Shown here: positions 132 through 23,613 of the stretch, in pieces
How the letters are laid out: every line of letters begins with the position of its first letter
How positions within the stretch are numbered: position 1 is the first letter of the stretch
Assembly: GCA_016218815.1 (NCBI GenBank)
Contig: JACRCX010000104.1
Span: 1 to 64,000, forward strand
Direction: 5' to 3'
DNA: 64,000 nucleotides
Source: Deltaproteobacteria bacterium
Lineage (GTDB): Bacteria > Myxococcota_A > Polyangia > DRWM01 > JAAZOP01
The notes under the pieces: generated by a model
Seen by the model: only the letters and a program-made list of their open reading frames with translations
Database searches by the model: none
What the model was told of the DNA's origin: nothing
Position numbers and translations under genes: made by a program

Positions 132-3100
132 TCACGCTGACCAACTCGCCGAACAGACGTCCTTGAAGGGTGCCCTTTCGGACCGCGGCATGAAGTCGCC
201 CATCGCCTCGGCGGAGTGCTTGAAGTTCCCGCAGTAGCGGCAGAGCCTCTCCCGCTGGAACCGGGCCTTGTCCTCGTCGAAGTCGGCGAGGCTGGGATGG
301 CCGAGGCCCAGGCCGAGTACCCGGTCGATCCCGCCGGCTGCGCTGCAGGCGTAGTATCCCCGACGGTTCAGCCCGAAGCCGCAGTACGCGGTCACCCAGC
401 AGCCCGCCCCGAAATCCGCATCCCGGAAGCGGGGGTCGTCCATGGGCGCGTCGTTGAAGGGCGTGAAGTAGTCAACGACGGGTCCCGTCTTGAAGGACGC
501 GGTGTCCACGAACGCGTTGGGCGGGAGCGCCACGCGGTCGAGGACGGCTAACGCCTCGGGGGTGCCGTTGGAGGTGATCTGGATGGTGGTCGGTCCGCCA
601 GGCGGGAACGCCCGGCTGATCTCCCGGACGATCTCGGCGAACTGGGGGTGCAGCGTCGGCTCGCCGCCCAGGACGTTCACGAGAGTGAACTGGCGCTGCA
701 GCGCCCGGGCCTGATCGAGAAACGCCTGCACGTGCTCGAGCGACATCATCTCCGACGTGGGCGCCTGGCTGCACGAGCGGTTGCAGGAGCGGCAGTGGAG
801 GTTGCAGGCGTAGGTGATGTCGATCTCGACCCGGTCCAACGAGGTCCGGAACTGCTTGCGGCCCGCCGGAATGACGGCGCCCTCCCGCGACGGCAGCGCG
901 GCCGCATGCGACCAGAACGCGGCGGCACATCCGGGCTCGACCCGCGACGGCATGCAGTTGACGTGGTCCGTCCTGATCGGGTTGCGCGAGACCTCCACCA
1001 GCGGAACGGCGAGCCCCAGGTGCCGATGGTCGGGCAGCCACTCGTACTGCCGGCTCATCTTCACGAACTCGTTGCCGACCACGGTTTCCGCGCGGCGGAA
1101 CTTGAAGTCGTACGGTCCGAGCGCATCGAGAAGGCGCCGGCGGAAGCACGGGAAGCCTCGGTCCAGGCCGCTCCCCCCCTGGCGGGGGTGCAGGAAGTCC
1201 ACCTTGTGGAGCCCGAACCCACCAATCCGCCATTCCTTCCCCAGCGCGAAGTCCGCACCGTAGTTCGCCAGGTCGGCCTTGAGGGCGGCGACGGTCGTGC
1301 TGCGCAACAGCGCGCTCGACCCGTCCAGCAGCAGCACGAACGAGTCGGGGTTGTCGACGAAGTGGCGAACAGCCCGTTCCACGACCGCCAGGGTCGGTTC
1401 GCGCAGCCGGTTGCAGAGCAGCGTCGTTCTGCCCGAGATCGGCGCTACCAAATCCCGGAGCTCGCGCAGCAGCGCCCCCTCCGAGTGGTTGTCGATCAGG
1501 ATGAGCCCCCAGCCTCGATCCGTCTGGCTGAGCAGGCTGCTCAACAGGCGTCGGGCCTGCGCCATGGTCTCCTCGGGCGGCAACAACGAGACGACCACCA
1601 AGTCCTCACCACGCTTGGGGCGGCACCACTCCCGGAAGCTGCCCTGCGCCTCGGGCTGGTCGTCCTGGCCGAGAGGCAGCGCGAGTTGTTCCACGCGGTC
1701 GAGGAGCGTCATCCAGACGTACGGGTCGCGCTTGCGGTAGTTCTGCGGGTGGACGTAGAAGGAACGGTGGTCCCCGCCGCGCAGCGACACGAGACCGCGC
1801 TCCGCCTGCAGGCGCTGGACCGCGCGGTACCAGGTGAGTTCGAGGCCCTCGGTGCTGGCCGCGTTCGGAAGCGGTGCTTGACGAAGGAGACGCCCGCGGT
1901 CGAGGAGGCACATCCGGACCTCGGGCACGAAGCTCGGCGCATCGAACCCGAAGTAGGGCTGGAAGCCGGAACGGCCTGCGTGCTTGATCCCGAAGGCGAC
2001 CGTGAGCGCCTGTGGATGGGCATCGAGGGCGGCCTGCATGTCGGTCAGGAAGGAGTGCTGGCGGTCGTGCCGCCCGATCATCACGTCCACGTCGAGCTGC
2101 AGGATTCGGTCGAACTGCGCCGCGTCGATTCCGTGCAGGTGCGGCACGACCGGGGCGCCCGAGGCCGTGTGCGTGTGCTCCACGTCGAGGCCGAACCAGC
2201 GCCGGTTCACATCACGTGCGACGTCCGGGCCGCAGCGGACAACCCGGTCGACGACGCCCTCGGCGCCCAGACGAACGAGGGTGGCCTCGAAGACGTCGGT
2301 CTGGTCCGAGTCCTGGAACTGGCGGACGAAGTCCTGAGTGCGGCAGTCGTCGACGACCAGCAGCTTCTCGCCGAACAGGTCGGGCCCTTCGAGCTGGCGG
2401 ACGACGTGCGTCACGCATGCGTAGAGGCCCACCGCGTCCTGGCGGCAGCACTTGATCAGCAGCGTCACCGGCTTCCGGCCCCAGGCAGAGCGGTCCGGGC
2501 TGGTCGTCGGCGCCCGCAACGTGACGTCGCGGCATTGGCGGCGGAGCACTTCATCGAACACCTGCCGGGCGAAGTCCTCCAGCCCGTCCAACTCGGGGAG
2601 GTCGAAGTTGTTGATGGCAGCGCGCCGGAGCTTGAGCAGGCGGTCGGGGGGAAGGTGTCCGTGGCGGAGCTGGACGAAAGCCCTCGCGACCATGTTGGCG
2701 AACAACTCGTCGGTGAACGGCTCCGGCTCGTAGTCGACGAGGAGCAGCGAGCCGTCGAGCCTGCGAACGAAGTTGTCCGCCGGGATGTTCCTGAAGATGA
2801 CCTCCATCTCCCAGCATTCCGAGAGGAACGAGATCAGATCGTCCCCGGTGAGGTCCTCGACCGGCCTGCTGGGTTCGAACGGATAGGAGAGGACCCACGC
2901 GCCCTCGACGCGCTCGAGCGCCGCGAGAGCGGCGAAGTGCTTCCGGCCGGCGAAGTCTGGCAGGCGGGAGCCCAGGTACGTCAGGGTGTCGCTCTCCCGT
3001 TGGAGGTCGGGCTGCCGCGCCAGGTGGACCTTGAAGACGCGGCTGCCATCATGGAAGACGACGCCGCTGAAGCCCTCGCCCAGGAAGGAGTAGTCACCGG

Positions 3101-3155
3101 GACGCCACGTCTCGAGCAGCTTCCTCGCCGCGGCTCGCCGGTTGGTATCCGTCAT
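132..3155 (-). CDS. Kinase-like / glycosyltransferase / glycosyltransferase / radical SAM fusion protein
   Basis: A 1007-residue multidomain protein. Residues about 20-150 resemble a protein-kinase-like fold: a glycine-rich loop (LGEGFSGVVF), a candidate lysine in VFKVH, a loop IPADNF and a DFG-like VDYEPEP. The usual catalytic HxD aspartate is not evident. A first glycosyltransferase-like module begins near 227 (LLIKCCRQDA) and has DVDV near the middle. A second family 2-like module begins near 515 (GWGLILIDNHS). The C-terminal radical SAM domain carries CNLHCRSC near 781-793, GGEPTLHP and a SPASM-like cysteine set ending in CRYCGNF. The ATG at 3155 was chosen over a longer frame because it overlaps the preceding stop by 4 bases. 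It is the last gene of a three-gene operon. It probably builds or modifies a glycan or glycoconjugate; the substrate is unknown. Confidence 0.8.
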   Translation of the reverse strand: MTDTNRRAAARKLLETWRPGDYSFLGEGFSGVVFHDGSRVFKVHLARQPDLQRESDTLTYLGSRLPDFAGRKHFAALAALERVEGAWVLSYPFEPSRPVEDLTGDDLISFLSECWEMEVIFRNIPADNFVRRLDGSLLLVDYEPEPFTDELFANMVARAFVQLRHGHLPPDRLLKLRRAAINNFDLPELDGLEDFARQVFDEVLRRQCRDVTLRAPTTSPDRSAWGRKPVTLLIKCCRQDAVGLYACVTHVVRQLEGPDLFGEKLLVVDDCRTQDFVRQFQDSDQTDVFEATLVRLGAEGVVDRVVRCGPDVARDVNRRWFGLDVEHTHTASGAPVVPHLHGIDAAQFDRILQLDVDVMIGRHDRQHSFLTDMQAALDAHPQALTVAFGIKHAGRSGFQPYFGFDAPSFVPEVRMCLLDRGRLLRQAPLPNAASTEGLELTWYRAVQRLQAERGLVSLRGGDHRSFYVHPQNYRKRDPYVWMTLLDRVEQLALPLGQDDQPEAQGSFREWCRPKRGEDLVVVSLLPPEETMAQARRLLSSLLSQTDRGWGLILIDNHSEGALLRELRDLVAPISGRTTLLCNRLREPTLAVVERAVRHFVDNPDSFVLLLDGSSALLRSTTVAALKADLANYGADFALGKEWRIGGFGLHKVDFLHPRQGGSGLDRGFPCFRRRLLDALGPYDFKFRRAETVVGNEFVKMSRQYEWLPDHRHLGLAVPLVEVSRNPIRTDHVNCMPSRVEPGCAAAFWSHAAALPSREGAVIPAGRKQFRTSLDRVEIDITYACNLHCRSCNRSCSQAPTSEMMSLEHVQAFLDQARALQRQFTLVNVLGGEPTLHPQFAEIVREISRAFPPGGPTTIQITSNGTPEALAVLDRVALPPNAFVDTASFKTGPVVDYFTPFNDAPMDDPRFRDADFGAGCWVTAYCGFGLNRRGYYACSAAGGIDRVLGLGLGHPSLADFDEDKARFQRERLCRYCGNFKHSAEAMGDFMPRSERAPFKDVCSASWSA

Positions 3156-3901
3156 GGTGTCCTGCGACGGAACTCGCGGAGCAGTGCGAGGCGGGAATCG
3201 CGGTATGTGGTTCCCTTCCGATTTCGAGCGGTCACGGCTCCCGAGAGCGAGTAGGTCGCCCAGAGCAACTCCTCGCCGAATCGCAGGCGGAGCTCCGCCC
3301 GGCGACGCAGCAGGTCCACGGTCAACCAGTGATCCTCGGCGCTCTTCGCCGGCGGGTAGGCGAAGGCGACGCTCGTGCGGATGATGGTGTTGCACGAGGG
3401 CAGCTCGGCGGCGGGCTCGCCCTCCGCCATGCCGGCGAGGCGCTCGCCGAGGTGGGCAGGTTCGGCGAGCTCGGGTGTCGCGCGATTCACCCGTTCGAGC
3501 ATCCGCCCGTGCTCGCGCAGCCTGTTGCCCAGGAACAGCACGTCGGGGTGGTGCCGGCGCAGCAGTTCGTCGGCGCGACGCAGGACGTCGAGGCCGGCGA
3601 GCTCATCGTCGCAGTCGAGACGCGCCAGGTATGCACCGCCGTCGTACCGGACGCGCACGTCGCGGAGCATCGCGGTCCGCGTCGCCCAGGCCGAGCCGTG
3701 CGCCGTCGAGATGATGCGCAGATCCGGCCGGCCCGCGTACGGCCTGACGGCGGGCTGCCAAGCGTCGGTCGAACCGTCGTCGACGAGGAGCACCTCGACC
3801 GGGCGGGGGATCGGCTCCTGCTCGAAGACCGAGGCGAGCGCCCGCCCGACGCTGGCCGCGCCGTTCCTCATGGCTACGCCGATGACGAGCGGCTCCGTCA
3901 T
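3152..3901 (-). CDS. Family 2 glycosyltransferase
   Basis: A 249-residue GT-A type glycosyltransferase. The N-terminus has the family 2 pattern: GVAMRNGAASVGRALASVF, then VEVLLVDDGSTD. The nucleotide-sugar/metal site is seen as ARLDCDDE near residue 100, a variant of the DxD motif. The start ATG overlaps the stop of the upstream glycosyltransferase by 4 bases (ATGA), and its own stop overlaps the downstream fusion gene in the same way. The three genes are therefore almost certainly translated together. No signal peptide or membrane helix is seen. It probably transfers a sugar in the cytoplasm to a lipid or peptide acceptor; the donor is unknown. Confidence 0.85.
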   Translation of the reverse strand: MTEPLVIGVAMRNGAASVGRALASVFEQEPIPRPVEVLLVDDGSTDAWQPAVRPYAGRPDLRIISTAHGSAWATRTAMLRDVRVRYDGGAYLARLDCDDELAGLDVLRRADELLRRHHPDVLFLGNRLREHGRMLERVNRATPELAEPAHLGERLAGMAEGEPAAELPSCNTIIRTSVAFAYPPAKSAEDHWLTVDLLRRRAELRLRFGEELLWATYSLSGAVTARNRKGTTYRDSRLALLREFRRRTP

Positions 3902-4854
3902 GGCGACTCCCCGGCGACGGAGCGCGGTCGATACCCGAACAGGTGCTGCGCCCGCCGGAGCGATGCTCGTCGGGCCGCCTCGGAGAAGCGCGCCCCATAG
4001 AGCGCGTACAACCGGTCGAGGGCGCGGTGCTTGGCGGCGAGGTCGGTGGTGACGCTCGGCCCACGATGGTGGTGGTGCCGCACGAGGACGGTCGGAACCA
4101 CGACGATCTCCTCGTCGACGCGCACGTCGTCGAGCAGCCGGATCATCAACTCCCGGTCGCAGGAGCCCGTGAACGCCTCGTCGAAGCCCCCGATCCGCGC
4201 CAGCAGTCGGGTCGCGATGAACATGTTGCTGCCCTGGACGCCGGGGTCGCCGATGAAGAACGCCTCGGGCGTGAGGTCTTCCGCAGCGAACGGCCTCGGG
4301 GAGGAACCGCGCTCGTCCACCCACTCGAGGTGGGCGAAGACGGCGACGGTGCGGGGGGCAACCCTGGCCAGGCAGGCGGACAGGTATTCGGGCAGCCACT
4401 CGTCATCGTCATCGAGCAGGGCGATGAACGAGTCGCGCGCGTCGGCCTCGGTGGCGAACTGTTGGATGCCGGTGTTCCATGCGCCGGAGCCGCTGTGCCC
4501 GTGCGTGCGGGCGTTGGCTATCACCTTGGTCGAGAAGAGATCGTCCGGCAGCGCGACGGCGCTCCGCAGCCGGGCGACGGCGTCCTGGATCATGCCGAGC
4601 CGGCCCGAAGCGGCGGCGCCGGCGACGGGTTCGTTGTCGTCGACGATGAGCACGTGGACGTGTCGGGAGCCGCAGTCGGCCTGGGCGTAGACGGAGCGCA
4701 GCGCCCGGTCGACGAGCCACTCGGTCCGACCATGGGCCGTGGCGATGAGGACCAGAACCCGCGGCGCCTGATCCGGGGCCGGCCCTTCCGGGTTCCGAGA
4801 CGATGCGGCGAAGGAGCGCTCCCGCCGGGGTCCCTTGCAGCCGGTGAGCGCCAT
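3898..4854 (-). CDS. Family 2 glycosyltransferase, first gene of operon
   Basis: A 318-residue glycosyltransferase. After a polar leader of about 30 residues comes VLVLIATAHGRTEWLVDRAL, then HVLIVDDNEP and the acidic metal/donor motif ALLDDDDEW near residue 145. HHHHRGPS follows toward the C-terminus. The ATG at 4854 is preceded by a GGAGGGG ribosome binding site; the longer open frame upstream lacks one. It leads the minus-strand operon with a second GT2 and the kinase-like/GT/GT/rSAM fusion. The residues after the start (MALTGCKG) are too weakly hydrophobic to call a lipoprotein signal. Confidence 0.8.
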   Translation of the reverse strand: MALTGCKGPRRERSFAASSRNPEGPAPDQAPRVLVLIATAHGRTEWLVDRALRSVYAQADCGSRHVHVLIVDDNEPVAGAAASGRLGMIQDAVARLRSAVALPDDLFSTKVIANARTHGHSGSGAWNTGIQQFATEADARDSFIALLDDDDEWLPEYLSACLARVAPRTVAVFAHLEWVDERGSSPRPFAAEDLTPEAFFIGDPGVQGSNMFIATRLLARIGGFDEAFTGSCDRELMIRLLDDVRVDEEIVVVPTVLVRHHHHRGPSVTTDLAAKHRALDRLYALYGARFSEAARRASLRRAQHLFGYRPRSVAGESP

Positions 4855-5018
4855 CAGGTCTTCCCCTCCGCGACGATCACGTCTGCCTCGGAGGATACCG
4901 AAGCCACCGCGGAACACAACCGCCCGAGGACATCTCCGTCGGCTCCCGATCCGTGGAAGAGGGAGCGCTGCCCATCTCTCGGGGCGTGAAGCAGACCGCC
5001 GTCGTTGGTGTCGGCGAA

Positions 5019-5693
5019 TCAGTAGTCGTCGGGGGGACGCATCATCTCGTCCACCAACTGGAAGACCTCCACGGCGGATCCGCAGGTCGGGCATGGCGTC
5101 GTTCGCGCGACCTGCGGCCCAAGGGTGTGTCGCAACCAGCCGAAGTACAGGTCCATCAGGCCGTCTGGGGTGAGGGCCAAGCAGCGATTCAGGCGAAGCC
5201 GAGAGAGAAGGTCCTCGTGTATCGTGACGACGTATCGGAAATCGACGAATCCCTCCGGCAGCTCCTCTGTGATGCTGATGGCGCCCTTGGGCAGGTAGAA
5301 CAGGCTGGAGCATCGTCCTTCGATGACGGCCGCTTGGTCCTCGACACCTGTGACGTCTGCCAGCGGGCGAACCAGACCGAGTTGCCGAATCTTGCCGTGG
5401 TCGATGTCGCAACCGCGGGTCAGAAGAACGGCGTACGTGAACCGCGCCGGTACGGCCAGTTTGGCATCCTTGGTGCCGCCGGCAACGGCCGGGGGGATGA
5501 CCGCAGGCATCCCGTCGCCGTGCAAGGTCGCGGTCACGCTCTTGTCCCCTCGCTGCTGTTGCTGCCCTACGTGGACGAGGACCTTCAGTGCCGGGAAGAG
5601 ACACGGGGCCAACTTGATGATATCCCCGGGCCTGACCTTCTCGGCGTCCGGCGCCTGGTAGAAGTCCGGGATGGCGGTATCAGTCGCCGTCAT
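5019..5693 (-). CDS. Unrecognised 224-residue protein of the TIGR04255 cassette
   Basis: I do not recognise the family with certainty. The soluble protein has a conserved-looking core, YAVLLTRGCDIDHGK, followed by VRPL and an aromatic FRYVVTIHEDLL segment. A CPTCGS pair near residue 200 is a possible half of a zinc site. The LLTRGCDI core resembles the SQSCD-type motif I associate loosely with small uncharacterised proteins near defence-type genes; this is memory, not a search result. The ATG lies inside the end of the upstream gene (14-base overlap), so the two are probably translationally coupled. It is third in a TIGR04255-led operon. Confidence 0.65.
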   Translation of the reverse strand: MTATDTAIPDFYQAPDAEKVRPGDIIKLAPCLFPALKVLVHVGQQQQRGDKSVTATLHGDGMPAVIPPAVAGGTKDAKLAVPARFTYAVLLTRGCDIDHGKIRQLGLVRPLADVTGVEDQAAVIEGRCSSLFYLPKGAISITEELPEGFVDFRYVVTIHEDLLSRLRLNRCLALTPDGLMDLYFGWLRHTLGPQVARTTPCPTCGSAVEVFQLVDEMMRPPDDY

Positions 5694-6015
5694 TCGTCTT
5701 CGGGGTCGGGCGGTCAGACGCCGGGGCGCGGGAGAGGACCGACTTCATCGCCGTGACCCGTGCTTGGAACCCGCGACTCCACTGCTGCCGGGCGGCATCG
5801 AGTCGGGCGCTTGCCTCCAAGGCGTGGATTGAGGTTGGAGTTCCGCGGGCCTCGTGGCGCGGATTCAGCGCGATGCTGCGAGGCATGGCTCCGCGTATCA
5901 CCTGATCGATGCTTGCGGCCGTGCGGTTCGGATGCATGGCCGATTCCGTGATCAACCTCGACAGATCAGCATTCGCCATGTTGCCGAAAGTTCCCAGGCA
6001 GGCCAGGACGCCCAT
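5680..6015 (-). CDS. Small unrecognised protein of the TIGR04255 cassette
   Basis: A 111-residue soluble protein with no family I recognise. It begins two bases after the stop of the TIGR04255 gene and overlaps the next gene by 14 bases. This spacing is the main reason for choosing the ATG at 6015 over an earlier in-frame ATG. The first half is mildly hydrophobic (MGVLACLGTFGN); the second half is basic and probably helical. The gene context suggests that the three products work together. Confidence 0.5.
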   Translation of the reverse strand: MGVLACLGTFGNMANADLSRLITESAMHPNRTAASIDQVIRGAMPRSIALNPRHEARGTPTSIHALEASARLDAARQQWSRGFQARVTAMKSVLSRAPASDRPTPKTNDGD

Positions 6016-6016
6016 G

Positions 6017-6805
6017 CTACGGGACCACTTCAGGGCCCATGGCCTCGTGGAGTCCACGCCCGATGCACCATCGAAACAGCCTGCCAGCCTGCTTGTTGAA
6101 CTTGTCGAGGACTTCTCGGACATCGCCCCTCTCCGTCGGGCCCTCGCGGAAGAAGTCGGCATCAACCAGATAGCAGACCTCCTCCGAATCCCGAAGCTTC
6201 GCGAACCCGTGGTAGAGCCGCACCTTCTCGGATGGGTGCTCGAGCCGAATCACGATCTCGCGGCTTGCGCCCTCCGCGTCGTTTTCGAGACCCTCGAATC
6301 CAGGGGCCACCAACTCTCCGAGCAGTTCCTTCCGCAGCAGGGTCGACCACGGTTGGCCATCGACCCCCAGGTCGGAGCGTTGGATCAGGTCGCGGTATCG
6401 AAGGCCGATTCGTTCGAAGCGAGGAACCTGGTACGTGTTGATGAGGATTCCGGTGATGGACTCCAGGCGAGTCCGGAAATCCTCCCAGCGTGAGTACCTG
6501 GTGGACGTTAGCGCCAGGAACTCGCTGGCCAAGCTGATCTTCCAGATGCCGTCTGCCGACAGGAAATCGAACGCCCGACGTGCGAAAGCCCCCGCGTCGA
6601 TCCCCGCCAGGGCAAGCACCTCCGGCGGGATCGGCGGAAATGCAGGCACCTCGTTGACGGTAGGGTAGTCAGCCCGGATCTGGTCCTGGAAGTCAGAGGG
6701 AACGTCCCCCTCGATACGGAGGATCCGCGGGTATCGGAGCTGGCAGATCACCTCCGCCAGGGGGTTGTGGCGGTAGATCACGCGTTCCGACTCGGGGAAG
6801 AGCAT
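6017..6805 (-). CDS. TIGR04255 family protein
   Basis: A 262-residue protein matching the sporadically distributed TIGR04255 family, whose function is unknown. Typical features are an N-terminal VIYRHNPLAEVICQLRYPR, where homologues have a similar NPL.EV..Q..FP stretch, a central WKISLASEFLALTSTRYSRW and FERIGLRYRDLI. The length is usual for the family. The ATG at 6805 has AGGAGG 13 bases upstream, a slightly long spacing. It leads a three-gene minus-strand operon. Members are often carried in small variable cassettes, so a role in defence or stress is possible but unproven here. Confidence 0.75.
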   Translation of the reverse strand: MLFPESERVIYRHNPLAEVICQLRYPRILRIEGDVPSDFQDQIRADYPTVNEVPAFPPIPPEVLALAGIDAGAFARRAFDFLSADGIWKISLASEFLALTSTRYSRWEDFRTRLESITGILINTYQVPRFERIGLRYRDLIQRSDLGVDGQPWSTLLRKELLGELVAPGFEGLENDAEGASREIVIRLEHPSEKVRLYHGFAKLRDSEEVCYLVDADFFREGPTERGDVREVLDKFNKQAGRLFRWCIGRGLHEAMGPEVVP

Positions 6806-7019: not shown

Positions 7020-8207
7020 TCAGATGCGGGTGCCGGTGACGGGGATGGCCTGGTTGCGGCAGCCGGAGAAGGAGCAGGAGTAGCCGTCGTGGTCGACGTA
7101 GGTGGCGGTGAAGGTGCCTTCGAAGTGGGAGGGGTCGACGACGCCGCCGGGGTCGGGGAAGGCGCCTTGCAACTCGTAGTTCTCGATGCAGCCGCCGCTG
7201 ACGACAACCACGGCGTCGAAGGCGGTGCCGGTGGGGGTGCCGGCCTGGACGAGCTCCATGGGGTTGCCGTCGCTGAGCATGGAGAGGGGCGAGGGGGAGA
7301 TGTAGAGGATCGGGCCGCGAAGCTCGAAGCAGACACGGTTGAAGCTGTAGTTGACGGCGCCCATGGCGCAGCGCTGGGAGACGGTGGTGTCGAGGTCGAA
7401 GCAGCCGTTCCAGAGGCACTCGGGGTGATCGGCGAGGCACTCGGAGAGCCCGCAGTTGACCTCGTGGACGCACATGCCGCCGGTGCCGGCGGCGGGGTCG
7501 CAGGAATCGATGGTGCAGGCTTCGCTGTCGTTGCAGTCGCGCGGGACTTCGGGCTCCTGGCAGCCGAACTCGGGATCGCAGCGGGGGATGCCGTCGCAGA
7601 AGGCGAAGTCGGTGCAGTCGGCGGGGGTGTCGCAGGGCATGGGGGTGTAGCAGCCGCGGTCGGCACCGCAGACCTCGCCGGTCTCGCAGAGGGCGTTGTT
7701 CGCGATGTGCTGGCAGAGGTTGCCGACGACGCAGTCGTCGACGGTGCACCAGAAGGTGTCGTCGCAATCCGCGGCGGTGAGGCACTCGCCGTTGGGGACG
7801 CAGCCGGCGGCGGGATCGCAGCGCTCGAGGGTCTCGCAGAGGGCATCGACGGGCTGGTTCTCGCAGAGGTTGCCGACGCCGCAGGTATCGACGGTGCAGG
7901 CGAAGCCGTCGTCGCAGTCGCCGTCGACGGTGCAGGCACCGGCGATGCAGCCGCGTCCGGGGACGCAGCTCTCGCCGTCGGCGCACATGGCGTCGATGGG
8001 GTTGTGCTGGCAGGTGCGGTCGGCGCCGCAGGAGTCGACGGTGCACTCGAGGGAGTCGTCGCACTCGGCGCTGCTGGAGCAGCGGGTGGACGTGTCGGCG
8101 TGGTCGCCGACTTCGGCGCCGTCGGCCTCGACGTCGTCGGCCTGGGTGGCGGTGCAGCCGGCGGCGAGAACGCCGGCCAGGAGAATGGTGCCGACTCGTC
8201 GTTGCAT
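7020..8207 (-). CDS. Cysteine-rich exported lipoprotein
   Basis: A 395-residue predicted lipoprotein. The signal peptide ends in LLAGVLAAGC (Cys 18), followed by an acidic linker. Residues about 40-260 consist of repeated units with six or so cysteines, of the type CxxDxxCDDGFACTVDTCG, which should be disulfide-rich outside the cytoplasm. The last 130 residues form a separate domain with few cysteines ending in GCRNQAIPVTGTRI. A paralogue with the same layout lies immediately upstream (8241-9086). The binding partner is unknown. Confidence 0.8.
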   Translation of the reverse strand: MQRRVGTILLAGVLAAGCTATQADDVEADGAEVGDHADTSTRCSSSAECDDSLECTVDSCGADRTCQHNPIDAMCADGESCVPGRGCIAGACTVDGDCDDGFACTVDTCGVGNLCENQPVDALCETLERCDPAAGCVPNGECLTAADCDDTFWCTVDDCVVGNLCQHIANNALCETGEVCGADRGCYTPMPCDTPADCTDFAFCDGIPRCDPEFGCQEPEVPRDCNDSEACTIDSCDPAAGTGGMCVHEVNCGLSECLADHPECLWNGCFDLDTTVSQRCAMGAVNYSFNRVCFELRGPILYISPSPLSMLSDGNPMELVQAGTPTGTAFDAVVVVSGGCIENYELQGAFPDPGGVVDPSHFEGTFTATYVDHDGYSCSFSGCRNQAIPVTGTRI

Positions 8208-8240
8208 TTTTCGTCAACTCCTCATCCCAGCTTGCTCGAG

Positions 8241-9086
8241 CTACATCCGCGCGCCGACCACGGCGACGTCCTGCGATGAGCAGGACGGGCAACCCGGGAA
8301 GGTCGCGGTCCAGCGACCGGCGAAGTTGTTGGAGTCGGAGAAGGTGCCGGTAAGGGAGTAGGTGCCGCAGCCCTGGGTGCAGGTGACGGAGAAGGTGGCG
8401 CCGTCGGGCGGGGGCGCCTGGCGCATGGCGCACGGCGCACCCCAGACCTCGAGCTGGGGATCGGTGCGGACGAAGGTGATGGAGTCGATGGAGTAGGTGA
8501 CGCCCGGGCAGGATTGCGACTGGCCCGGGGCGAAGAAGAACTCGCCGCTGTAGTGGACGAGCGGGTCGAAGGTGGTGCTGGAGTCGCCGCCGTCGGTCTC
8601 GCAGCCCTCGCCGGGGACCCAGTCGTAGACGCAGTGGTCGAGCGTCGGGTCGCAGGAATCGTCGGTGCAGACGTTGCCGTCGTCGCAGACGTAGCCGTCG
8701 GGGTCATCGAAGCAGTCGCCGACGATGCACGTCTCTTCGCCGTTGCAGAACACGCCGTCGGAGCACTGAGCGTCGGAGGTGCAGTCCCCCGAGGTGCAGC
8801 CGACGGCTTCGACGCAGCGCTCGCCGGGGGCGCAGAGGGCGTCCAGGGCGGTATGGCCGCAGGCGCCGCCGGCGCGGCAGACGTCCTGGGTGCAGGCGAT
8901 GCCGTCGTCGCACTGGGAGGAGGAGGTGCACCCCGCCTCGGCCTCGGCGTCCGCTTCGGCCGCGACGTCCTCCGCGCGGGCGTCCTCAGGCCGTCCGGTA
9001 TCCGTGACGGCGTCGTCGGGCGGGGCGCAGGCGGTTCCCCACGAGAGGAAACCGACCGCGGCCAGGGTCGTGAGCGTTCGGGGCAT
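8241..9086 (-). CDS. Cysteine-rich exported lipoprotein, paralogue of the next gene
   Basis: A 281-residue protein. The ATG at 9086 has an AGGAGGT site upstream. The signal sequence ends in LSWGTAC, a slightly weak lipobox. An Asp/Ala/Glu-rich linker follows, then about three cysteine-rich units (CDDGIACTQDVC, CSDGVFCNGEETC, CDDGNVCTDDSC). The C-terminal domain of about 110 residues ends in CSSQDVAVVGARM, matching in position and style the C-terminus of the neighbour at 7020-8207. The two genes are 33 bases apart and probably arose by duplication. Confidence 0.8.
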   Translation of the reverse strand: MPRTLTTLAAVGFLSWGTACAPPDDAVTDTGRPEDARAEDVAAEADAEAEAGCTSSSQCDDGIACTQDVCRAGGACGHTALDALCAPGERCVEAVGCTSGDCTSDAQCSDGVFCNGEETCIVGDCFDDPDGYVCDDGNVCTDDSCDPTLDHCVYDWVPGEGCETDGGDSSTTFDPLVHYSGEFFFAPGQSQSCPGVTYSIDSITFVRTDPQLEVWGAPCAMRQAPPPDGATFSVTCTQGCGTYSLTGTFSDSNNFAGRWTATFPGCPSCSSQDVAVVGARM

Positions 9087-20280: not shown

Positions 20281-23200
20281 ATGACGGTGCGGTTCCGGTT
20301 GAACGGGACGGCGGTGGCGCTGGAGGCGCATCCGGCGCGGCGCTTGATCGATGTGCTGCGGGAGGACTTTCGGCTCACGGGGACGAAGGAGGGGTGCGGG
20401 GAGGGGGAGTGCGGGGCGTGTACGGTGCTGATCGATGGCCAGCCGGCGGCGGCGTGCCTGCTCCTGGCGGGGCAGGTCGAGGGGCGGGAGGTGACGACGA
20501 TCGAGGCGTTCATCGCGGGCGACCCGCACGAGGTCGCGCGGCACCTGGTCGAGGCGGGGGGGGTGCAGTGCGGGTTCTGCACGCCGGGGATCGTGCTGAG
20601 CGCGCACGCACTCCTGGAGCGGGAGCCGGCACCGTCGCGCGAGCGGATTGCGGAGGCGCTGGGCGGGCACCTCTGCCGGTGCACGGGCTACGCGGGCATC
20701 GTGGCGGGGATCGAGGCGGCGGCGCGGGCCGGAACGGAGACGGCGGTACGGCCGTCGTTCGGGGCGGCGGTGGGTGCGGCGGTCCCGCGACGCGACGGGC
20801 TGGACCGGGCCTTGGGGCGGATCCGCTACGTCGACGACCTCAGCGAGCCGGGGATGCTGCACGGCGCGGCGGCCTACGCGTGGGTCGCGCACGGCAGGGT
20901 GAAGGCCGTGCACGTGGACGAGGCGCGGGCGGTGCCGGGCGTGGTGCTGGTGGCGACGGCGGCGGACATTCCGGGGCGCAACGAGGTCGGGGCGGTGCGG
21001 GACGATCAGCCGCTCCTGGCGTGGGAGCGGGTGCGGTTCCCGGGCGACCGCGTGGCGCTGGTCGCGGCGCGGACGCGGGAGGCGGCGCGGGAGGCGGCGC
21101 GGCTGGTGCGGGTCGACGTCGAGGCCCTGCCGGCGGTCCACGACCCGGACCTGGCGCTGCGGCCGGACGCGCCCCGAGTACACGAGTTGGGCAACGAGTG
21201 CGCGCGGTACGTGCTGCGGCACGGCGACGCGACGGGGGCGCTCGAGGCGTCGGACGTCGTCGTCGAGGAGATCTTCCGCACGAGCCGGCAGGAGCACGCG
21301 TACCTGGAGCCGCAGGGGGTTTTGGCGGTTCCGGACGCGGACGGGGGCGTCACGGTGCGCGGCTCGATCCAGTGTCCGTACCACGCGCGGGAGAAGGTGG
21401 CGCAGGTGCTGGGGGTGGAGCCGGAGCGGGCGCGAATCGCGCCGACGCCGCTGGGGGGCGGGTTCGGGGGGAAGCAAGACTATCCGAACGAGGTGGCGGC
21501 GTGCGCGGCCCTCTTGGCGCGTCTTTGCGGCAAGCCGGTGAAGCTGGTGTACGAGCGCGACGAGGACATGGCGGTGACGAGCAAGCGTCACCCGTACCGC
21601 ATCCGCACGCGGCTGGGCGCGCGGCGGGACGGGACGCTGCTGGGGGCGAAGGTCGATGCGGTCGCGGACGCGGGCGCGTACGCGGCGATGTCGCCGATCG
21701 TGCTGTGGCGGTCGTTCAACGTGATGGCGGGGCCGTACCGCGTTGCGGGAATCGACATCGAAGCGCGCGCGGTTTTTACGAACAACGTCCCGGCCAGCGC
21801 GTTCCGGGGGTTCGGCCATCCGCAGGCGCTGTTCGCGCACGAGGCGATCCTGGACCGGATGGCGGCGCGGCTGGGTCGCGATCCGATGGAGCTGCGGTTC
21901 CAGAACCTGCTGCGGCCGGGGGACGCCAACGCGACGGGGCAGGTGTTCACGACCGATCTGCACCTGGCGGAGGTGCTGGAGTCGGTGCGGAGGCGATCGA
22001 GCTGGGCGGAGGCGCGGGCGAAGGCGGAGGCGGCGAACGCGCGGGGCGGCCGGTGGCGCCGCGGCCTGGGCGTGGCGCTCTTGCAGTTCGGCTGCAACCT
22101 GGGGGTCGTGGACCAGGAGCTGGACCACGCGGAGGCGGTGCTGCGGGCGCGCTCGGACGGGGTGGTCGAGGTACGGACGGGGCTGACGGACATGGGCCAG
22201 GGGGCTTTGACGGTGCTGGCGCAGATCGCGGCCGACGCGCTGGATCTGCCGCTGGAGCGGATCCGGATGCTGCCGCCGCACACGGGCGAGGTGGGGGACT
22301 GCGGGCCGAGCGCGGCGTCGCGGGTGACGATGGTGGGGGGGATGGCGATCCTGGACGGGGCGCGGCGGCTGCGGGAGAGGCTGGGACTGCCTGGGGCGGC
22401 GGCGCGGGGGGCGATGCACGACCTGGAGCGATGGGAGCGCGCGGTGGCCGAGGCGAGTCCGGAGGGAGAGCCCTTCGACGGTGCTCAGGGCGAGCCGGTC
22501 GAGGTGCGCGGCCGGATGCGCAACGTCTACGGGTCGTGGGAGCCCGCGGTCGGGCAGGGAGACGCGTACGTGGCGTACACGCACGCCGCGGACGTGGCGC
22601 AGGTCGAGGTGGACACGGCGACGGGGCGGGTGCGGGTGGAGAAGGTCTGGGCGGCGTACGACATCGGCACGGTCGTCAATCCTGTGCTGGCGCGGGCGCA
22701 GGTGGAGGGCGGCGTGGTGCAGGGGGTGGGCTACGCGCTGCTGGAGGAGCTGCAGCTTCGCGAGGGGCGGGTCGTCAACGCGAACCTGTCGAACTACCTG
22801 GTGCCGACGGCGCTGGACGTGCCGGAGGTCGACGTCGAATTCGTGGAGGGGTATTCGCCGCCGGGGCCGTTCGGGGCCAAGAGCCTGGGGGAGCCTTCGT
22901 TCGTGCCGGCGGCGGCGGCGATCGCGGCGGCGGTGCGGCATGCGACGGGGCTGCCGGTGACGGAGCTGCCGGCGACGGCGGAGCGGGTGTTCCTGGGGCT
23001 GCGGGCGCGGCGGGAGGCGCCGCCGGCGGTCGTGGTGGCGGCGGGAGAGGGCCGGAGGATGGGCGGGCCGAAGGCGCTGTTGCGGCTGGGGGGCGAGGCG
23101 CTGTGCGTGCGAGTCGCGCGGTCGTTCCTGGAGGGCGGTTGTCCGGAGGTGGTCGTGGTGCTGGGGGCGGGGGGGGACGAGGCGGAGCGGCTGCTGGGAG

Positions 23201-23613
23201 GGATCGGGAGAATCACGACCGTGCGCATCTCCGATCCCTCGGCGCCGATGTTCGCTTCGGTGCGGGCGGGGCTGGCGGCGGCGGAGGGGGCGGGGGAGCG
23301 GGGGGCGTTCGTGCATCCGGTCGACGCGCCGCGCGTGGCGTCCTCGACGGTGTGGGGAATGATCGAGGGGCTGGTGCGGGGCGGCCGGGAGGCCGACGCG
23401 GTGGTGGCGGGGTTCGGGGGGCGGCGCGGGCATCCGGTGTGGATTTCGGGGAGGAGGGTGGGGGAGGTGCTCGAGGCGCCGGAGGGGTACCCGGGGGGGC
23501 TGCGGGGGTGGATGGGGGACCGCGGGTGGGGGATGGAGATCGCGGAGACGGGGGATCCGGCGGTGCTGGACGATTTCGATCGGAGGGAGGACGCGGGGGG
23601 GGGAGGGAGCTGA
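20281..23613 (+). CDS. Molybdenum hydroxylase: 2Fe-2S + Mo-cofactor subunit fused to a MocA-like domain
   Basis: A 1110-residue fusion. Residues 1-150 hold both 2Fe-2S clusters: Cys 39, 44, 47 and 59 for the plant-type cluster, and Cys 97, 100, 132 and 134 for the second. Residues about 165-910 are the molybdopterin subunit of the xanthine dehydrogenase/aldehyde oxidase family (TPLGGGFGGKQDY, AFRGFGHPQA, and GAKSLGEPSFVP with the likely catalytic Glu). Residues about 914-1110 resemble MocA, the molybdenum cofactor cytidylyltransferase (AVVVAAGEGRRMGGPKALL, HPVDAPRVA). An in-frame repeat encodes EPFDGAQGEPV near residue 730. It probably hydroxylates a heterocycle or aldehyde; the substrate is not readable from sequence. 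Confidence 0.85.
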   Translation: MTVRFRLNGTAVALEAHPARRLIDVLREDFRLTGTKEGCGEGECGACTVLIDGQPAAACLLLAGQVEGREVTTIEAFIAGDPHEVARHLVEAGGVQCGFCTPGIVLSAHALLEREPAPSRERIAEALGGHLCRCTGYAGIVAGIEAAARAGTETAVRPSFGAAVGAAVPRRDGLDRALGRIRYVDDLSEPGMLHGAAAYAWVAHGRVKAVHVDEARAVPGVVLVATAADIPGRNEVGAVRDDQPLLAWERVRFPGDRVALVAARTREAAREAARLVRVDVEALPAVHDPDLALRPDAPRVHELGNECARYVLRHGDATGALEASDVVVEEIFRTSRQEHAYLEPQGVLAVPDADGGVTVRGSIQCPYHAREKVAQVLGVEPERARIAPTPLGGGFGGKQDYPNEVAACAALLARLCGKPVKLVYERDEDMAVTSKRHPYRIRTRLGARRDGTLLGAKVDAVADAGAYAAMSPIVLWRSFNVMAGPYRVAGIDIEARAVFTNNVPASAFRGFGHPQALFAHEAILDRMAARLGRDPMELRFQNLLRPGDANATGQVFTTDLHLAEVLESVRRRSSWAEARAKAEAANARGGRWRRGLGVALLQFGCNLGVVDQELDHAEAVLRARSDGVVEVRTGLTDMGQGALTVLAQIAADALDLPLERIRMLPPHTGEVGDCGPSAASRVTMVGGMAILDGARRLRERLGLPGAAARGAMHDLERWERAVAEASPEGEPFDGAQGEPVEVRGRMRNVYGSWEPAVGQGDAYVAYTHAADVAQVEVDTATGRVRVEKVWAAYDIGTVVNPVLARAQVEGGVVQGVGYALLEELQLREGRVVNANLSNYLVPTALDVPEVDVEFVEGYSPPGPFGAKSLGEPSFVPAAAAIAAAVRHATGLPVTELPATAERVFLGLRARREAPPAVVVAAGEGRRMGGPKALLRLGGEALCVRVARSFLEGGCPEVVVVLGAGGDEAERLLGGIGRITTVRISDPSAPMFASVRAGLAAAEGAGERGAFVHPVDAPRVASSTVWGMIEGLVRGGREADAVVAGFGGRRGHPVWISGRRVGEVLEAPEGYPGGLRGWMGDRGWGMEIAETGDPAVLDDFDRREDAGGGGS
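22468..22500. repeat. In-frame CCCTTCGAC...GCTCAGGGC element inside the hydroxylase
   Basis: The core CCCTTCGACGGTGCTCAGGG matches a dispersed element (CCCTTCGACAAGCTCAGGGC type) seen in many unrelated bacterial genomes. Here it is translated as EPFDGAQGEPV in a region that is otherwise Glu/Ala-rich and probably a surface loop. A related copy lies 1.1 kb downstream at 23621. Confidence 0.7.

Follow-up and report, generated by a model that had tools for sequence, protein, structure and literature searches.

A conserved gene cassette joining a pseudokinase, glycosyltransferase-like domains and a Twitch-type radical SAM domain in a deltaproteobacterial genome

Gene content and organization of the cassette

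The stretch of DNA analyzed here (the window) comprises the first 64 kb of contig JACRCX010000104.1 (C55) from a Deltaproteobacteria bacterium whose genome of 7.3 Mb is 83% complete. It begins with three minus-strand genes (132–3155, 3152–3901 and 3898–4854), each adjoining pair overlapping by 4 bases, of which the last in reading direction (132–3155) encodes a fusion protein with a protein-kinase-like domain, two glycosyltransferase (GT)-like domains and a radical S-adenosylmethionine (SAM) domain in a row. Such an operon had been proposed in an earlier note made from the sequence alone, and its layout holds in every part: the reading frames are exact, both upstream genes pass the Pfam cut-off for GT2 glycosyltransferases, and the four modules lie at the boundaries given before. 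When the fusion was scanned against Pfam as a single sequence, the radical SAM domain was recognized at residues 780–872 (E = 3.6e-9), a GT2 match at residues 535–570 stayed below the cut-off (E = 0.22), and no kinase family was matched. Because the window starts at the end of the contig, only 131 bases are known downstream of the fusion gene. The cassette consists of the following features.

132–3155, minus strand: fusion protein KIN-GTC-GTD-rSAM, 1007 amino acids; same fusion in loci L018 and L043
2490–3155, minus strand: KIN, protein-kinase-like pseudokinase domain, residues 1–222; kinase profile matches, catalytic Asp of the HRD motif absent in all members
1620–2486, minus strand: GTC, glycosyltransferase-like domain, residues 224–512; DxD motif in QLDVDVM, no family match
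861–1619, minus strand: GTD, GT2-like domain, residues 513–765; degenerate DxD motif in LLDGSSALL, Pfam match below cut-off
135–878, minus strand: rSAM, Twitch-type radical SAM domain, approximately residues 766–1007 (aligned 760–1007); assigned by Pfam and structural model
3152–3901, minus strand: GTB, GT2 glycosyltransferase, 249 amino acids; Pfam GT2 at 6.1e-10, motifs RLDCDDEL and SAEDHW
3898–4854, minus strand: GTA, GT2 glycosyltransferase, 318 amino acids; Pfam GT2 at 1.7e-7, motif LLDDDDEW
141–4920, no strand assigned: conserved cassette, 84% DNA identity to L018

Conservation of the fusion in other genomes

The position of the gene at a contig end and the loss of catalytic residues in GTD and KIN would also be compatible with an assembly fusion of separate genes, a possibility raised in the earlier note, or with a decayed pseudogene. 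However, the same fusion occurs in two other genomes. In a metagenome-assembled genome of a groundwater deltaproteobacterium (L018) it is 85% identical and accompanied by the same two upstream GT genes, and in a genome of the same phylum but a different family (G319, locus L043) it is about 45% identical within the same three-gene order. The ratios of nonsynonymous to synonymous substitution rates (dN/dS) between the window and L018 amount to 0.42 for KIN, 0.23 for GTC, 0.17 for GTD, 0.21 for rSAM, 0.21 for GTB and 0.20 for GTA; every module is under purifying selection. The shared order at these two degrees of divergence, along with dN/dS values of 0.17–0.42, rules out an assembly fusion of separate genes, and the probability left for an artifact or a pseudogene is negligible.

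DNA similarity between the window and L018 is restricted to the cassette. It ends 66 bases upstream of GTA on one side and just inside the last codons of the fusion on the other. In L018, a HEPN_LA2681-TPR gene overlaps the fusion gene by 4 bases and was considered as an operon partner. This candidate was rejected because DNA identity stops at the end of the fusion and because a full-length match is absent from the genome of the window, where a single weak match covers residues 125–168 only.

Module combinations in related loci

About 20 loci were compared using hidden Markov models of the six modules. Six genomes have all of GTA, GTB, KIN, GTC, GTD and rSAM in one locus, arranged as follows (hyphens join fused modules).

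Window, L018 and L043: GTA / GTB / KIN-GTC-GTD-rSAM
L044: GTA / rSAM / GTB-KIN-GTC-GTD
L019, on a plasmid of Salinivibrio kushneri: GTA / GTB-KIN-GTC-GTD, with rSAM as convergent neighbor
L147: GTA / GTB / KIN-GTC-GTD / rSAM / rSAM

The order GTA, GTB, KIN-GTC-GTD is constant in this radical SAM type, and the position of rSAM varies. Given that the six modules co-occur under different fusions, they are expected to act together (Rosetta-stone evidence). The genes of the split versions follow the order of the domains in the fused ones, which suggests channelling. In the split version of L147, the two tandem rSAM paralogs (1607–4073) lie beside a QueC-like gene that was recognized by eye.

Two further types share part of the modules and carry other tailoring enzymes, such as a methyltransferase (MTase) or a polysaccharide deacetylase, where rSAM would be. 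The sister MTase type is a single protein of approximately 1,800–2,000 amino acids with the order GTA-MID-KIN-MTase-GTC-GTD, often including a polysaccharide deacetylase domain, and its gene adjoins a SLOG gene in several loci. The third type combines GTA-KIN-MID with RibA-NADAR, asparagine synthase and N-acetyltransferase. In L028 (8236–14900) and L050 (7248–14097), the gene for the pseudokinase-GT protein is followed by genes for a RibA-NADAR fusion, an asparagine synthase and an N-acetyltransferase, apparently a distinct biosynthetic operon. In a phylogenetic tree of GTC the radical SAM and MTase types are split; the six loci of the radical SAM type form one clade (100/99) and the three fused proteins one subclade (99/95), a topology consistent with a single fusion event. 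GTC is rare, being present in 8 of 318 genomes of the class and in 5 of 379 genomes of a phylum sample. A tblastn search of phage genomes (INPHARED) gave no match, and no viral contig carrying the whole fusion protein or GTC was found.

The kinase-like domain lacks the catalytic aspartate

A profile built from 13 KIN members matched protein kinases in the PDB (best match 1.3e-5), and the 60 matches listed are all kinases; the N-terminus is thus kinase-like, as first proposed. In the window protein the Gly-rich loop reads GEGFSGVV, the conserved lysine is found in VFK (VFKVH), FRNIPADN takes the place of HRDxxxxN, and DYE that of DFG. The Gly-rich loop and the lysine of the VAIK motif are kept in all 18 members that cover them, the DFG Asp in all members, and the metal-binding Asn in most. 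By contrast, the catalytic HRD Asp is replaced in each of 19 KIN domains (by Asn in 17, and by Ser and Cys in one each). Because this residue is absent across the family, classical phosphotransfer is unlikely, and with it the phosphorylation of an acceptor envisaged in the earlier note. KIN is probably a pseudokinase for which nucleotide binding is possible.

Alternatively, KIN might be an active atypical kinase that transfers phosphate or AMP to an acceptor, or modifies it in another way, by a mechanism for which the HRD Asp is not needed. A precedent exists in SelO-like chemistry, and the residues conserved in most members (Gly-rich loop, VAIK Lys, metal-binding Asn, DFG Asp) would be in line with it. 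However, besides the family-wide replacement of the catalytic Asp, the metal-binding Asn is lost in L043 and the DFG Gly in the rSAM-fused clade (DYE), and of all modules KIN is under the weakest constraint, as judged from its dN/dS value. We therefore regard an active kinase as quite improbable.

Glycosyltransferase domains

Acidic motifs are kept in GTA (DDDD), GTB (DxDD) and GTC (DxD, in 15 of 15 members). As GTC has no match in Pfam or the PDB, its presumed GT-A fold is deduced from the motif and the context. GTD aligns with relatives that pass the Pfam GT2 cut-off and possess a DxD motif; this motif is present everywhere except in the rSAM-fused proteins, which show LDGSS or LDPGD instead. 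The previous suggestion that both GT domains of the fusion add sugars is weakened by this loss of the DxD motif from GTD, which is confined to the lineage of the window protein.

The radical SAM domain is predicted to be of the Twitch type

The core motif CX3CX2C (CNLHCRSC) is aligned in all rSAM members. A structural model was obtained from an alignment of 42 sequences (window, L018 and 40 relatives from viral contigs), with a predicted local distance difference test (pLDDT) score of 88.8. Twitch domains are characterized by cysteines on either side of a β hairpin and two more after the second helix (PMC6231123). The model displays the (β/α) core of radical SAM enzymes followed by C166, a hairpin (168–176), C178, two helices (179–188 and 202–215) and C213/C216, of which C166, C213 and C216 are invariant and C178 is conserved in at least 90% of the 42 sequences. 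As modeled, rSAM is of the Twitch type with a predicted C-terminal domain for one auxiliary cluster.

The best matches to this model that Foldseek retrieved from the PDB were SpeY (6.3e-6) and BtrN (8.4e-5), both with near full-length alignments, followed by BlsE (1.4e-4). All three belong to antibiotic pathways and act on sugars, cyclitols or sugar nucleosides. BtrN and SpeY, the Twitch dehydrogenases of butirosin and spectinomycin biosynthesis, share with rSAM the CX3CX2C core and the Twitch domain. Unlike rSAM, which is fused behind GT domains and 14–17% identical to BtrN and SpeY, they are stand-alone enzymes acting on small cyclitol or aminoglycoside intermediates. By analogy with these closest solved folds, rSAM would most likely oxidize a sugar or cyclitol hydroxyl. 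Two viral-contig proteins (L054, 9140–10711; L055, 9221–10705) consist of an N-terminal GT-like domain, recognized by eye, fused to the same rSAM family.

A different substrate would be a peptide or protein carrier that is modified by the GTs and rSAM and recognized by KIN, be it in a glycosylation pathway or in one for ribosomally synthesized and post-translationally modified peptides (RiPPs). Many SPASM/Twitch enzymes are RiPP maturases (PMC6231123), and several such families are among the weak NCBIfam matches. However, a fourth gene would not fit into the 84%-identical block; it contains neither a small conserved open reading frame nor a precursor peptide gene, although a more distant precursor is possible. 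Because such a frame is absent and the nearest solved folds act on sugars or cyclitols, the modified peptide previously listed among the candidate products has lost ground, and we consider a pathway of this kind improbable.

A proposed glycan-assembly line with radical sugar oxidation

We give about an even chance to the cassette being a glycan-assembly line combined with radical sugar oxidation. It would encode a soluble, cytosolic multi-glycosyltransferase system in which GTA, GTB and GTC, whose acidic metal-binding motifs are intact, successively attach sugars to an acceptor. KIN, which keeps nucleotide- and metal-binding residues without the catalytic base, would probably serve as a scaffold, sense nucleotide or hold the acceptor, and GTD, catalytically degenerate in this lineage, would probably bind the growing chain. 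The fused Twitch enzyme would then abstract hydrogen from a carbon atom of a sugar or cyclitol and, like BtrN and SpeY, most probably turn a hydroxyl group into a ketone. The analysis shows the domains and their motifs, the conserved set and order of the modules, the Twitch fold and the selection on them; from there we infer the order of reactions, the sugar substrate of rSAM, the scaffold role and the solubility of the product.

Several points weigh against this interpretation. The Foldseek template-modelling score of about 0.5 to SpeY indicates a related but not the same protein, rSAM profile matches at the sequence level span the core only, and sequence similarity is a poor guide to both the fold and the function of SPASM/Twitch enzymes (PMC6231123). 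An AlphaFold prediction of the full-length fusion from two sequences reached a pLDDT of 30, and the assignments of KIN, GTC and GTD rest on sequence. Moreover, a sugar pathway is not obvious in the RibA-NADAR/asparagine synthase sister group.

The cassette could instead be part of a surface-glycan (capsule or lipopolysaccharide) island in which a glycan repeat, lipid-linked or at the cell surface, is built by the GTs and oxidized by rSAM, with transport genes located elsewhere. Surface-glycan variation typically involves GT2-rich, sporadic cassettes that have probably moved horizontally, and GT clusters of similar logic have been described in jumbo cyanophages (PMC7824862). On the other hand, none of the three proteins contains a transmembrane segment (maximal KD19 value 1.28), and no priming GT, carrier or flippase, polymerase or transmembrane protein is present in the conserved block or was recognized in the flanks. 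The precursor peptide or lipid carrier that the earlier note proposed to look for nearby is likewise missing from the block. A glycolipid or capsule unit, also suggested there, is possible but rather unlikely as the product.

Genomic context

The cassette is sporadic and, since its surroundings differ between the window genome and L018, probably mobile. L018 is flanked by an integrase-like gene (recognized by eye), a PDC-M01/PtuA-like pair and a DruE-like gene. Relatives often seem to adjoin defence genes: BrxH/BrxD/PglZ (L025), BrxC (L051), type I restriction (L029), MkoB (L028) and ZacC/Hhe (L050). BrxD is found in 27 of 144 genomes of the class, and the estimated chance of its proximity within 10 kb is about 0.05% per locus. 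As the neighbors scanned for defence genes were chosen by eye, this association is suggestive rather than measured. When the cassette proteins were compared with known anti-phage systems in PADLOC, only partial matches to the rSAM core (pVip) and the kinase loop emerged. Given the sporadic, probably mobile nature of the cassette and its defence-gene neighbors, the product may perhaps serve conflict or surface variation.

The two genes directly upstream of GTA have a G+C content of 63.9%, compared with 72.0% in the rest of the window, and are possibly island cargo; one of them belongs to TIGR04255, a sporadically distributed family according to NCBI. These and other features of the window are listed below.

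5019–6805, minus strand: low-G+C gene pair encoding an unmatched 224-amino-acid protein and a TIGR04255 family protein
7020–9086, minus strand: neighboring pair of predicted lipoproteins, both Cys-rich, alike in appearance and matching no family
20281–23613, plus strand: protein of 1110 amino acids with xanthine-dehydrogenase-like FeS and Mo subunits (residues 3–908) and a C-terminal molybdenum-cofactor nucleotidyltransferase-like domain (916–1104)

Relation to known systems and significance

Parts of the cassette resemble well-known proteins. Multidomain glycosyltransferases of chlorovirus PBCV-1 such as A064R are soluble polypeptides that string together several GT domains and a tailoring domain. 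The cassette fusion is similar in this serial layout, whereas the chlorovirus proteins are not known to contain a pseudokinase or radical SAM domain. GTA and GTB pass the cut-off for the GT2 family (PF00535) of exopolysaccharide clusters; by contrast, GTC lacks a family match, GTD with its lost DxD remains below the cut-off, and transport and polymerase genes are absent. KIN shares the Gly-rich loop, the Lys, the metal-binding Asn, the DFG Asp and a profile match with other protein-kinase-like pseudokinases but differs from them in that the HRD Asp is replaced family-wide and the domain always occurs within or beside multi-GT proteins. The domain combination is unusual, as had been noticed at first sight: neither a GT/radical SAM/pseudokinase fusion nor a NADAR/GTP-cyclohydrolase/GT cluster was found described in the open-access literature, which in itself does not prove novelty.

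It is tempting to speculate, unlikely as it may be, that these loci represent a new family of colinear, pseudokinase-centered multi-GT assembly lines with swappable tailoring (Twitch radical SAM; methyltransferase and deacetylase; RibA-NADAR and asparagine synthase) that reside in defence islands and produce a diffusible aminoglycoside- or oligosaccharide-like metabolite for phage defence or competition. The sequence features and the module system themselves are solid; a role in defence or competition is a weaker inference than glycan assembly with radical sugar oxidation. In the fusion, one polypeptide chain joins chemistries that usually reside on separate enzymes: the transfer of several sugars, a domain that is a pseudokinase throughout its family, and a radical oxidase of the sugar type. 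If the product is a new oxidized sugar compound, the family would help to mine genomes of Myxococcota for aminoglycoside-like chemistry, and the cassette would be a testable case for the role of a pseudokinase inside a glycan-assembly line.

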